Source: Brachyspira hyodysenteriae ATCC 27164 (GTDB taxonomy: Bacteria; Spirochaetota; Brachyspiria; Brachyspirales; Brachyspiraceae). Taken from it: a DNA stretch of 64,000 nucleotides. Of the stretch, positions 53,090-60,380 are shown in pieces (position 1 is the stretch's first letter; each line of letters starts with the position of its first letter). The notes under the pieces were generated by a model. It was given only the letters and a program-made list of their open reading frames with translations. It did no database searches and had not been told where the DNA came from. The stretch is taken from assembly GCF_001676785.2 (NCBI RefSeq), contig NZ_CP015910.2:806001-870000 (forward strand), read 5' to 3'. Made by a program: the position numbers and the translations under genes.

Positions 53090-53216
53090 ATTCTTTCTTG
53101 AAAAAATATAACTTTATTATAAAATATATGTTAATAACATTATATTTAATTAAAAATTTTATTTTTTATTGATAATAAGAGTTTTATAGTTAATATTAAT
53201 TGAGGTTTATGATAAT

Positions 53217-55589: not shown

Positions 55590-55778
55590 TTAAGCATAAG
55601 TGCTTAATCTTTCACCTACACCAGGTCTCATAGGTGCAGAAACAGCTTGAGGCTGAATGCTAGTCATAATTTTATCAACAGCTTGAGCCTGCATATCTGA
55701 AGTTTTTCTTATCATGCTTAAAGAAATATCTTGTTTAAGCATTCCAGTAGAATAAGAACTATAAGCTGAAAGATCCAT
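55590..55778 (-). CDS. YjfB-family putative motility protein
   Basis: A 62-residue protein MDLSAYSSYSTGMLKQDISL... with the YjfB outline: an N-terminal helical segment, LSMIRKTSDMQAQAVDKIMTSI, then a Pro/Ala linker and a PGVGERLSTYA ending that matches the PxxGxxxDxxA-like tail. YjfB is a small motility-associated protein of unknown mechanism. A GGAGG site precedes the ATG. It is followed by a strong terminator. Confidence 0.75.
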   Translation of the reverse strand: MDLSAYSSYSTGMLKQDISLSMIRKTSDMQAQAVDKIMTSIQPQAVSAPMRPGVGERLSTYA

Positions 55779-56026: not shown

Positions 56027-56230
56027 TTAAGCATATACATCCAAAGTCTTTCCAATATTGTTATTTATAGGAGCAGATGATCCCTGAGGAGTTACTATGC
56101 TTGCAACTTTATCAGCAGACTGAGCTGAGCCGTATGCAGAAGAGTTGTAAACATTTAATCCTGCAGAAGTCATATGTCTAGTCAATGGAAACATATCGGA
56201 TGAATAAATAGAGTTAAGTGAAACACCCAT
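56027..56230 (-). CDS. YjfB-like putative motility protein, paralogue
   Basis: A 67-residue protein with the same plan as its neighbour: MGVSLNSIYSSDMF, a central SAQSADKVASIVTPQGSSAP segment and a tail NNIGKTLDVYA that aligns with the neighbour's GVGERLSTYA. Both are small and probably cytoplasmic. A sigma-28-like promoter (56262-56288) precedes this copy, supporting a motility role. GGAGG site precedes the ATG. Confidence 0.65.
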   Translation of the reverse strand: MGVSLNSIYSSDMFPLTRHMTSAGLNVYNSSAYGSAQSADKVASIVTPQGSSAPINNNIGKTLDVYA

Positions 56231-56380: not shown

Positions 56381-56450
56381 CAATATTATTTAATATATTT
56401 TTTATTAAATAATATTGACTTATTTTTTAATAATACATATACTAGGTATA
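56381..56450 (+). promoter_or_regulatory. CoA-disulfide reductase promoter with two inverted repeats
   Basis: TTGACT (56415-56420), a 17-bp spacer and TATACT (56438-56443) form a strong promoter. A perfect 15-bp inverted repeat (56381-56395 and 56403-56417, 7-nt loop) ends within the -35, and TATAC-TAG-GTATA (56438-56450) overlaps the -10. Both look like operator sites; the CstR-like protein encoded downstream is a candidate regulator. Confidence 0.6.
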
Positions 56451-56484: not shown

Positions 56485-58173
56485 ATGAAAAAAATATTAA
56501 TAGTAGGAGGTGTTGCAGGCGGTGCTTCTGCTGCAGCAAGACTTAGAAGATTAAATGAGGAAGATAAAATAATAATGTTTGAAAAGGGGCCTCATGTGTC
56601 TTTTTCTAATTGTTCTCTTCCTTATCATATAGGCGGGCTTATTCCTAATGAAGAAACTTTACTTTTAATGAATCCTGAGAAATTTTTAAAGCAGTTTAAT
56701 GTAGATGCAAGAGTTAATAGTGAAGTTGTTGCTATAGATAGAAAAAATAAAGAAGTTACAGTTGTATCTGAAGGCAGAGAGTATAAAGAAAGTTATGATA
56801 AGCTTATACTTTCAATGGGTGCTAAACCTATAGTACCTCCTATAAAGGGAATTGAAAAAGTTAATGTATTTACTGTAAGAAATGTTGTTGATATAAGCAA
56901 AATACATAACTTTCTTAAAGGAAAGTCAAATGCTAAGGTATCTGTTATAGGCGGCGGATTTATAGGTATTGAAATGGCTGAAAATTTGAAGAAGGTTGGA
57001 TATGATGTAACTATAGTAGAAGCATTACCTCAAATAATGAAGCCTTTCGATTATGATATGGTTCAAATTTTGCATAGAGAAATTATGGACAATGGAGTTA
57101 ATTTGATAGTTAATGACAAAGTTGATAGTTTCGATACAAATACAGTAATTTTAGGTTCAGGCAAAAAAATAGAAGCTGATGCTGTTATACTTGCTATAGG
57201 CGTTTCTCCTGAAACTGATATTGCTGCTAAAGCTGGAATAGAATTAGGAAAAACTAAAGGCATAAAAGTAGATTCAACATACAGAACTAATGATAAAGAT
57301 ATTTATGCAGTTGGAGATGCTATAGAGGTTTATAGTCCTTTATTCAATGATTATTACAGACTTCCTCTAGCAGGACCTGCTCAGAAACAGGCTAGGGCAG
57401 TTGCTGATCATATCAATGGAAGAACAGTTGATAATAGAGGATTCATAAGTTCATCAGTTATTAAGGTGTTTGGATATAACGGAGCTTCTACAGGACTTTC
57501 TGAAGGCTTCATTAAAGCTATGAATTTGAATATAGATTATGATACTGTTGAAATTATTCCTTTTGATGGCGTATCAATTATGCCTACAGCAAGATTAATG
57601 CATTTCAAACTCATATATGAAGTACCTACAGGAAAAGTATTGGGTGCTCAGGCTATAGGTAAAGGAAATGTTGATAAGAGAATAGATGTAATAGCAACTA
57701 TTATAAAATTCGGAGGAACTATAGATGATCTTAAAGATTTAGAATTATGCTATGCTCCTTCATTCGGAACTGCTAAAGATGTTGTTAATTTTGCAGGTTA
57801 TGTTGCTTCTAATTTAAGAAATGGAGATTATAAACAGGTTCATTATAGTCAAGTTAGAGAATTGGTTGAAAAAGATGCTTATTTCTTAGATGTAAGAATG
57901 CCTGAAGATTTTGCAGTAGGACATTTAGAAAAAGCTGTTAATATACCTCTTGGAGCTTTAAGAAGCAGATATAATGAGATACCTAAAGATAGAACAGTAT
58001 ATATAACTTGTAAAACTGGTCTTACTAGTTATACAGCATGCAAAATACTTCAAAATATCGGATTTAATAATGTTGTAAATGTTTCAGGCGGATTTATCGG
58101 TTTATCTCAGTATGAATATTTTAATGATAAAACTACTGGAAGAAAACCTATATTGACAGGATATTTCGGATAA
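56485..58173 (+). CDS. cdr: CoA-disulfide reductase with C-terminal rhodanese domain
   Basis: A 562-residue FAD/NAD(P)H-dependent oxidoreductase that reduces CoA disulfide or CoA persulfide, keeping thiol balance in bacteria using CoA rather than glutathione. FAD-binding GGVAGGASAAARLRRL is at the N-terminus; the active cysteine is Cys43 in FSNCSLPYH; the NAD-binding site VIGGGFIGIEMAENL is near residue 155. Residues about 455-560 are a rhodanese domain with DVRMPEDFAVGH and ITCKTGLTSY (sulfur-carrying Cys). The full-length domain order equals the CoADR-RHD type. GGGAG site precedes the ATG. Confidence 0.95.
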   Translation: MKKILIVGGVAGGASAAARLRRLNEEDKIIMFEKGPHVSFSNCSLPYHIGGLIPNEETLLLMNPEKFLKQFNVDARVNSEVVAIDRKNKEVTVVSEGREYKESYDKLILSMGAKPIVPPIKGIEKVNVFTVRNVVDISKIHNFLKGKSNAKVSVIGGGFIGIEMAENLKKVGYDVTIVEALPQIMKPFDYDMVQILHREIMDNGVNLIVNDKVDSFDTNTVILGSGKKIEADAVILAIGVSPETDIAAKAGIELGKTKGIKVDSTYRTNDKDIYAVGDAIEVYSPLFNDYYRLPLAGPAQKQARAVADHINGRTVDNRGFISSSVIKVFGYNGASTGLSEGFIKAMNLNIDYDTVEIIPFDGVSIMPTARLMHFKLIYEVPTGKVLGAQAIGKGNVDKRIDVIATIIKFGGTIDDLKDLELCYAPSFGTAKDVVNFAGYVASNLRNGDYKQVHYSQVRELVEKDAYFLDVRMPEDFAVGHLEKAVNIPLGALRSRYNEIPKDRTVYITCKTGLTSYTACKILQNIGFNNVVNVSGGFIGLSQYEYFNDKTTGRKPILTGYFG

Positions 58174-58200
58174 ATTTATATTTGTATACCTTTATAATAA

Positions 58201-58234
58201 AAAGAGCCGTTTTTTATGAAATGGCTCTTTTTAT
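58201..58234 (+). terminator. Rho-independent terminator after the CoA-disulfide reductase gene
   Basis: AAAGAGCC (58201-58208) pairs with GGCTCTTT (58223-58230), followed by TTTATT. Confidence 0.82.
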
Positions 58235-58365: not shown

Positions 58366-58971
58366 ATGTTAATAGAAAATGATTTAAAGATATTATCTCC
58401 TTCGGAGGCTGGTGAAATTATCAGTAATACAGACAATATAGTAATATTGGATGTTAGAACGGAGATGGAACATAATTATGAAGGTATGATTGAAGATTCT
58501 ATTTCTATGGATTTCCTTAAACCAAGAGTCTTTAAAAGAGAAATATCTAAATTAGACAAAGAAACTCCGTATTTATTGTATTGTTCTATTGGTAAGTTAA
58601 GTATAAAAGCAGCAGAATATATGAAAGAAGAGGGATTTAAAAATCTATATATATTAGAAGGCGGATTAAAGGCTTGGAATAAACATTTTGGAGATAATAA
58701 TAAAGTTTCTAAATTTGATAGAGAAGAGGCTGTAGAAAGAAGAAAAAGACTTATTATTAGATTAAATAGAATTGAAGGACAAATTAAAGGTATGAAAAAA
58801 ATGCTTGCTAAAGGTGAATATTGCGGAGATATACTCAATCAATCTTTGGCTGTTAAAGCTGCTATGGGAAGTGTCAATCAAGAAATTATGGAAGTGTTTT
58901 TGAATACCTGTATGATTTCACCTAAAGAAAAAGAAGATTTCTTTAGATATATGAGAAAACTAATAAAATAA
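58366..58971 (+). CDS. Rhodanese domain fused to a CstR-like (CsoR family) repressor
   Basis: A 201-residue fusion. Residues about 8-110 are a rhodanese fold (ILDVRTEMEHNYEG; active-site Cys73 in YCSIGKLS). Residues about 120-201 are a CsoR-family DNA-binding domain: RLNRIEGQIKGMKKMLAKGEYCGDIL and AVKAAMGSVNQEIMEVFLNTC. The two cysteines C153 and C182 are 29 apart, the spacing of the persulfide sensor CstR. The histidine that copper-sensing CsoR has four residues before its second Cys is Phe178 here, so copper sensing is unlikely. The gene lies next to the CoA-disulfide reductase-rhodanese gene, supporting control of sulfane sulfur. Confidence 0.85.
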   Translation: MLIENDLKILSPSEAGEIISNTDNIVILDVRTEMEHNYEGMIEDSISMDFLKPRVFKREISKLDKETPYLLYCSIGKLSIKAAEYMKEEGFKNLYILEGGLKAWNKHFGDNNKVSKFDREEAVERRKRLIIRLNRIEGQIKGMKKMLAKGEYCGDILNQSLAVKAAMGSVNQEIMEVFLNTCMISPKEKEDFFRYMRKLIK

Positions 58972-58980
58972 TTATTTTTT

Positions 58981-59008
58981 AAGCAAGGGATAATCCCTTG
59001 CTTTTTAT
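58981..59008 (+). terminator. Rho-independent terminator after the rhodanese-CstR gene
   Basis: AAGCAAGGGA (58981-58990) pairs perfectly with TCCCTTGCTT (58994-59003) across a TAA loop, followed by TTT and a T-rich tract. Confidence 0.92.
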
Positions 59009-59024: not shown

Positions 59025-60380
59025 TTATTTTCCCCAAGCATCAGGATTTTTATTCCATTCTAAAGCTTTGGATAATTCTTCTTCTGTTATGTACTTTTCA
59101 TCTTTAGCTATTTCCATAAGAGATGAGAAATTAGAAAGAGATGAGAATTTAATTCCAGCTTCTTCAAAGTTTTTATATGCTTTTTCAAATTCATAAGTAA
59201 ATATTGATATAATTTCAAGTCCTATAGCTCCTTCAGCTTTAGCTGCTTCAAATGCCTTTATAGAACTTCCTCCTGTAGATATCAAATCTTCTATCAATAT
59301 TAATTTCTTACCATCACACTCAGCACCTTCTATCTGTTTTCCTCTTCCATGTTCTTTTTTCTCTGCTCTTATATAGCATAAAGGTTTATTAAGTTCATAA
59401 GCTATGAAAGAAGCCCAAGGTATTCCTGCTGTTGCAGTACCAGCTATAACATCAAAATCTTTATCTTTTAAAATACTTACAAAAGCATCAACTATAACCT
59501 TTCTTGCTTCAGGGAATCCTATTACATATCTGTTATCGCAGTATATAGGGCTTTTTATTCCTGATACAAATGTGAAAGGCTCTTTAACATTAAGTTTAAC
59601 CGCTTTAGTTTCTAATAAAGCACCTGCTATCAATCTTGATTTTGCCTTTTTATTATTCTCCATACCTTCAGCAATTTCTTCAACAATCATTTTGCAGGCT
59701 TTTACTCTGTCTTCATTTCTTGTAATAGGTCTTCCAACAACAAGATAATCACATCCATTTTCAATAGCTTCTTTAGGAGTCATTACTCTTTCCTGATCAT
59801 CAGTGCTTGCCCATTTAGGTCTTACACCTGGACAAATTGTTCTGAAATTCTCTCCGCATTCTCTTTTTATAACAGCTGCTTCTTTAGGAGAGCATACAAC
59901 ACCATCAAGTCCGGATTCTTTTCCTAATTTAGCCCAATTAACTGCCAAATCTGTAAGAGGCAAATTAGAGCTGAACATATTTTTTACATCATTTTCAGAA
60001 AGGCTTGTTAATATTGTTACGCCTATTATTAAATTATCTTTATTAAGTTTTTTTATCTCTTGTACAGTTTTTTCCATCATCTTTTTACCGCCGCTTGTAT
60101 GTACATTGAACATAAATACATTCTGTTTAGCAGCGAATAATGAAGCCATAGCTGTAGTATTAGGTATATCATGGAATTTTAAGTCTAAAAATACTTTTTT
60201 ATTTTTACTAGCTAAATATTCTATTATTTCACCTTTAGTGTATAAAAAGAGTTCTAGTCCTACTTTATAAAATACAGCCTCATCTCCAAGCTCATCTATA
60301 AGTTTTGTAGCTTCTCCCATAGAATTAAAATCTAATGCTATGATTAATCTTTCTTTTGGGTTTTCAGTTAATTTTGTCAT
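59025..60380 (-). CDS. pyrF-pyrE: Fused orotidine-5'-phosphate decarboxylase and orotate phosphoribosyltransferase
   Basis: A 451-residue bifunctional enzyme for the last two steps of UMP synthesis. The N-terminal decarboxylase (about 1-240) has ALDFNSMGEA, the catalytic Asp-Lys-Asp triad in VFLDLKFHDIPNT (D66, K68, D71) and GCDYLVVGRPITR. The C-terminal transferase (about 250-445) has VIAGTATAGIPWASF, YIRAEKKEHGRGKQIEG and the PRPP motif LILIEDLISTGGSS. Order is decarboxylase then transferase, the reverse of animal UMP synthase. The gene is last of the pyrK-pyrD-pyrFE unit. Confidence 0.97.
   Translation of the reverse strand: MTKLTENPKERLIIALDFNSMGEATKLIDELGDEAVFYKVGLELFLYTKGEIIEYLASKNKKVFLDLKFHDIPNTTAMASLFAAKQNVFMFNVHTSGGKKMMEKTVQEIKKLNKDNLIIGVTILTSLSENDVKNMFSSNLPLTDLAVNWAKLGKESGLDGVVCSPKEAAVIKRECGENFRTICPGVRPKWASTDDQERVMTPKEAIENGCDYLVVGRPITRNEDRVKACKMIVEEIAEGMENNKKAKSRLIAGALLETKAVKLNVKEPFTFVSGIKSPIYCDNRYVIGFPEARKVIVDAFVSILKDKDFDVIAGTATAGIPWASFIAYELNKPLCYIRAEKKEHGRGKQIEGAECDGKKLILIEDLISTGGSSIKAFEAAKAEGAIGLEIISIFTYEFEKAYKNFEEAGIKFSSLSNFSSLMEIAKDEKYITEEELSKALEWNKNPDAWGK

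Follow-up and report, generated by a model that had tools for sequence, protein, structure and literature searches.

CstR, known from Staphylococcus aureus, Enterococcus faecalis and Streptococcus pneumoniae, is a repressor of the DUF156 fold that has lost the copper-ligand His of CsoR; in the references we used, its two thiols are 29 residues apart. It is linked to genes for CoA-persulfide reductase (CoAPR) and rhodaneses, as in the cst-like operon of E. faecalis, where it controls CoAPR and two rhodaneses (PMC9405070). Interprotomer polysulfide links form between its two cysteines (PMC9405070, PMC9774590). The CsoR copper sensors of Mycobacterium tuberculosis, Geobacillus and Streptomyces have a Tyr-Cys motif and operators built of TAC/GTA inverted repeats, a pattern known from CsoR-family sites (PMC10318464). 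TTHA1953, a CsoR-family repressor of the Sox genes in Thermus thermophilus, also has cysteines 29 residues apart (C39 and C68), and its 20-bp operator has no long G/C tract and consists of doubled TAC/GTA repeats. Rhodanese domains occur in one chain with a partner that either uses persulfide sulfur or delivers it (CoADR-RHD, CoAPR and the persulfide dioxygenase-rhodanese fusions), but the partner is an enzyme, whereas in the protein described here it is a DNA-binding repressor. Neither CstR nor TTHA1953 has a rhodanese domain.

The fusion gene lies at positions 58366-58971 (plus strand) of the window, by which we mean the whole 64,000-nucleotide stretch of the Brachyspira hyodysenteriae ATCC 27164 genome that was analysed. 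From an ATG start it encodes 201 amino acids plus a stop. A rhodanese domain (residues 12-106, positions 58399-58683, plus strand; Pfam PF00581, E 2.4e-15) is followed by a three-helix CsoR/DUF156 domain (residues 126-190, positions 58741-58935, plus strand; PF02583, Trns_repr_metal, E 5.6e-20, 72 bits vs a curated cut-off of 22.8), which bears out the domain pair that an earlier note had read from the sequence alone. The only cysteines of the chain are C73 (codon 58582-58584), in the rhodanese active-site loop CSIGKL, and the first and second sensor thiols C153 (codon 58822-58824) and C182 (codon 58909-58911). As the same note had it, the sensor thiols are exactly 29 residues apart, and the copper His of CsoR, four residues before the second thiol, is replaced by Phe (F178, codon 58897-58899; all codons on the plus strand).

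An AlphaFold2 model of the fusion (20-row alignment, mean pLDDT 81.6, pTM 0.65) consists of an alpha/beta rhodanese followed by helices at residues 119-149, 153-181 and 186-200. In the model C153 opens the second of these helices, as expected of the first sensor Cys in the CsoR/RcnR family, and the linker at about residues 110-120 has low confidence. The first half of the model superposes on known rhodanese domains: on that of CoADR-RHD over 104 residues (Z 14.9, rmsd 2.4), on that of E. faecalis CoAPR over 95 residues (Z 14.6, rmsd 1.6) and on E. coli GlpE over 102 residues (Z 14.8, rmsd 2.5). The Foldseek/VIA match lists were taken up by the rhodanese half, and the CsoR fold therefore rests on the HMM match and the pattern of helices. 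The rhodanese half has the PF00581 fold with an active-site Cys loop; Cys73, whose conservation the earlier note had singled out for checking, is invariant in 20/20 aligned fusions from two phyla, as is G76 of the loop. Rhodanese loops often end in Arg, and the last position of CSIGKL has none, so that catalysis by the fused domain is not assured. PADLOC returned no match.

The position of the copper His is occupied by Phe in 20/20 fusions vs His in 21/21 standalone homologues. An intact metal ligand set would speak against the CstR-like repressor that the earlier note proposed; the Cys-His-Cys set for Cu(I) is broken by Phe178 in every aligned fusion. That proposal holds insofar as the copper His is lost (Phe in the fusion, Asn in two CstR references) and the gene is linked to CoAPR, and fails as a sequence grouping. 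A 49-row tree places the fusions in a single clade (100/99) that excludes the CstR proteins of S. aureus and S. pneumoniae, which pair apart from it (99/93). The two groups also differ at the His site, with Phe in the fusions and Asn in the CstR references, and in the residue preceding the first Cys, which is Tyr in the fusions and Asp in the CstR references. The letters used for S. aureus CstR in alignment and tree are what we take to be its sequence. Those of S. pneumoniae CstR come from PDB 7mq1; figure 6 of PMC9774590 gives the name CstR to the sister entry 7MQ2. The CsoR half was aligned to check its cysteine spacing, and 29 residues are kept; the same spacing is present in 21/21 His-containing CsoR homologues and in the structures of CsoR and InrS. 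It is thus common to most of the family and not diagnostic, and we rejected it as a mark of CstR. C153 and C182 align with C31 and C60 of CstR, weak evidence given that CsoR has Cys there too. Among solved structures the top match by phmmer score is the copper CsoR 4m1p; unlike the copper sensors, the fusion has a C-terminal helix region about 10 residues shorter. Judged by sequence, its CsoR half is not a CstR and stands in a clade of its own. Because the 88 columns of the tree leave the order of the deep nodes unresolved, they do no more than suggest an origin independent of CstR.

A search for the domain pair in other genomes, as the earlier note had advised, showed that the fusion recurs. 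Of 26 Brachyspira genomes, 22 encode it intact, one (G001) has a frameshifted copy and three (G006, G009 and G021) are without it. Identity is 91-100% in 18 of these genomes (the window's own included) and 74-75% in the four others, which make up the B. pilosicoli clade. Fusions with 46-60% identity to that of the window were found in 12 of 98 Fusobacteriota genomes searched. The fusion is thus carried by relatives, and its conservation across Brachyspira and Fusobacteriota rules out a spurious or mis-annotated gene. Cys153, Phe178 and Cys182 are, like Cys73, invariant in the 20-fusion alignment covering both phyla, and between the two Brachyspira clades the CsoR half is better conserved than the rhodanese half. 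The fusion is the sole CsoR-family protein encoded in its genome. In a GTDB scan of about 85,000 species with two peptide patterns, which distant fusions would escape, fusions occur only in Brachyspira and Fusobacteriota. No full-length fusion was found on 72,556 plasmids or in 50,697 phage records, and none from non-Brachyspira genomes of a 296-genome Spirochaetota draw was among the matches listed. The frameshift in B. pilosicoli T010 (L022, G001:C290) falls at a one-base-shorter A-run just before the CsoR half; the assembly is in 460 contigs, and a sequencing error is possible.

Immediately upstream of the fusion gene in the window is the gene for CoAPR (positions 56485-58173, plus strand), its putative main target. 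The earlier note had placed beside the fusion a CoA-disulfide reductase that itself ends in a rhodanese domain, and this is what Pfam identifies: a flavoprotein with PF00581 at residues 456-537 and with C43 and C509 at the catalytic positions. Of the 26 Brachyspira genomes, 22 encode CoAPR, and each of these also has the fusion gene, frameshifted in one of them; the three genomes without the fusion have no CoAPR. The fourth genome lacking CoAPR, B. pilosicoli PC5538III-hc (G114), has the fusion, and its CoAPR gene has been deleted; the CoAPR promoter, the palindrome described below and about 16 codons are left (L160, G114:C38 about 53,140-53,210). The two genes are unlinked in the B. pilosicoli clade, and in ten Fusobacteriota genomes the fusion adjoins CoAPR or lies within a few genes of it. 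A YedE-like transporter is encoded near the fusion at eight of the loci (L075, L077 and L151-L156; PF04143 was tested on L075, the others were judged by eye). The most diverged fusion, L157 (G351:C2:295800-315700), has rhodanese genes as neighbours and sits in a cluster with an 863-aa ORF and several ORFs that resemble rhodaneses. On an Ilyobacter plasmid (L040) there is a similar cluster of rhodanese and FAD-dependent oxidoreductase genes without CsoR.

Brachyspira CoAPR shares 66-69% identity with the enzyme of one fusobacterial group, whereas the CoAPR proteins of the two fusion-bearing fusobacterial groups are only 47-50% identical to each other. These sequence identities suggest that sensor and target were transferred laterally, in one direction or the other, between Fusobacteriota and Brachyspira. 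The deepest fusion branch in the tree is the fusobacterial L157.

CoAPR and the fusion gene are separated by a terminator-like hairpin (AAAAAGAGCC...GGCTCTTTTT, positions 58199-58232, plus strand), which was read from the sequence; a 14-nt loop places it beyond the settings of the hairpin scan. Its presence makes transcription of the fusion gene on its own the likelier arrangement, and probably the actual one, and disfavours read-through from CoAPR. A second terminator-like hairpin, identified by the scan, lies 3' of the fusion gene (positions 58981-59003, plus strand). Convergent with the fusion gene is a minus-strand gene for an orotidine-5'-phosphate decarboxylase fused to a phosphoribosyltransferase (positions 59025-60380; PF00215 and PF00156). 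Two short, similar ORFs are located on the minus strand before CoAPR (positions 55590-55778 and 56027-56230), the former with a borderline match to YjfB_motility (PF14070, 26.5 bits vs a cut-off of 27).

CoAPR is preceded by a sigma-70-type promoter (TTGACT, 17 nt, TATACT; positions 56415-56443, plus strand), and over its -10 box lies a 17-bp palindrome of the form ATAC-N9-GTAT, the putative operator ATACATATACTAGGTAT (positions 56433-56449, plus strand). The palindrome is present at 22/22 Brachyspira CoAPR promoters, as ATACATATACTAGGTAT or, in the B. pilosicoli clade, as ATACCTATACTATGTAC with the right end GTAC. In all Brachyspira CoAPR loci except L058 the palindrome was read as covering the -10 box, the promoter being of TTGACT/TATACT type. 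The strict pattern ATACMTATANTAKGTAY has 48 matches in the 26 Brachyspira genomes vs 18 for a reversed control, and no match in the three genomes that have neither fusion nor CoAPR; related genomes in these counts are non-independent samples. In the window's genome there are three strict matches vs 0 for the reversed control. One lies before CoAPR, one before a lone rhodanese that shares 43% identity with the fused domain, and one before a thioredoxin-like ORF that contains TGA in frame; no copper transporter gene directly follows any of them. The CsoR site of Bacillus subtilis is similar, a 17-bp ATACC-N7-GGTAT. The Brachyspira palindrome is without the G/C tract of most CsoR-family sites, and several fusobacterial sites have GGG.

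The palindrome recurs in the second phylum. TAC-N9-GTA is found in 10/10 CoAPR promoters of fusion-bearing Fusobacteriota (eight with the exact ATAC-N9-GTAT) vs 0/20 CoAPR-like promoters of fusion-less Fusobacteriota, which include CoAPR relatives 69-76% identical (Fisher p 3e-8, uncorrected for kinship). When each fusobacterial promoter was shuffled by dinucleotides, the exact motif arose in 0-14 of 2000 cases. Taken with the co-occurrence of the genes, the shared palindrome predicts a regulon of CoAPR and rhodanese genes of the kind linked to CstR. A search ahead of the fusion gene itself revealed no such palindrome in Brachyspira or Fusobacteriota, and thus there is no sign of autoregulation in either phylum.

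The thioredoxin-like ORF is the first of two consecutive genes (PF13192; G000:C1 about 491,400-492,400, minus strand; L162, L109), both with an in-frame TGA, in the contexts MAIEKIQFG[TGA]GCLPDPLE... and MSLKDILFGKGGCG[TGA]GPSITP.... The same palindrome precedes the first of them, whose TGA is conserved in nine genomes. A tRNA-Sec match above the Rfam cut-off was obtained in 25/26 Brachyspira genomes. On these sequence features both are candidate selenoprotein genes.

We propose, with moderate confidence for the explanation as a whole, that the fusion represses genes for persulfide clean-up, responds to reactive sulfur and brings a sulfurtransferase domain of its own. The proposal builds directly on the domain architecture, conservation, co-occurrence and shared promoter palindrome, and from these we infer binding of the fusion to the palindrome, its effector and a hand-over of sulfur. 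With its thiols reduced, the CsoR-type domain (expected to be a tetramer) would bind ATAC-N9-GTAT over the -10 box and block transcription of CoAPR; in part of the genus, it would similarly repress the lone rhodanese and the thioredoxin-like gene. Upon a rise in persulfide or polysulfide, C153 of one protomer and C182 of its neighbour would be bridged by a di- or polysulfide, lowering the affinity for DNA and allowing expression of the clean-up genes. That the reduced form would repress and the sulfurated form release is taken from the analogy with CstR. Repression of CoAPR by the fusion is very likely, and sulfane sulfur is the probable effector. In the fused rhodanese C73 would accept sulfane sulfur, which would then move on to C153/C182. 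The conservation of C73 fits such loading within the same chain, a step that is plausible while falling somewhat short of probable.

The same repressor of CoAPR could also carry a rhodanese that is no donor (it might be a passenger, serve in oligomerisation or docking, or act as an ordinary sulfurtransferase), with the sensor cysteines reacting directly with small persulfides, as in CstR, which works without a rhodanese (PMC9774590, PMC9405070). The stronger conservation of the CsoR half and the low-confidence linker, which implies no fixed geometry, fit this arrangement. We consider it unlikely, as a mere scaffold would not need the C73 and G76 that all 20 aligned fusions of both phyla retain. 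Less likely again is a general sensor of thiol oxidation, responding to disulfides, electrophiles or nitroxyl and not to sulfane sulfur. There are precedents in the interprotomer disulfides that TTHA1953, a two-Cys CsoR protein, forms with oxidants (PMC10318464) and CstR with nitroxyl (PMC5480029), and the thioredoxin-like gene has the same site; however, the constant neighbours of the fusion are CoA-persulfide reductase, rhodaneses and a sulfur transporter. A metal sensor of the copper type, to which both Cys ligands, the Tyr before the first of them and the 4m1p match would point, was rejected on its ligand set and is very improbable, with the third ligand His being Phe in every member and the palindrome marking sulfur and thiol genes.

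Returning to the sulfur-responsive repressor, the fusion differs from the copper sensors in its predicted sulfur regulon as well as in its rhodanese and Phe, and from TTHA1953, which likewise represses sulfur genes, in the regulon it would control. Both domains and the logic of the regulon were already known, and the new element is their covalent pairing. In the open-access literature we found no sulfurtransferase and CsoR-type sensor in one chain; the main CstR papers lie outside that search, and a published mention is possible. We hold as tentative the wider reading that a persulfide sensor loaded by an enzyme domain of the same chain evolved apart from CstR, on a scaffold resembling that of the copper sensors, and was exchanged together with CoAPR between Fusobacteriota and Brachyspira. 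If this is true, sensing would be set by the sulfur-donor preference of the rhodanese and not by the inherent reactivity of the sensor thiols.

The selectivity of persulfide sensors for sulfane sulfur and their loading by sulfurtransferases are usually studied with separate proteins. Here a candidate donor and a sensor are combined in one short chain with three cysteines, so that single Cys mutants can answer such questions directly. The fusion suggests a second route from the copper-sensor fold to a sulfur sensor. For Brachyspira, which are gut bacteria, it gives a predicted sulfur-stress regulon that includes one candidate selenoprotein, and together with the palindrome at the CoAPR promoter it suggests a sulfur-stress switch with a built-in sulfur carrier.
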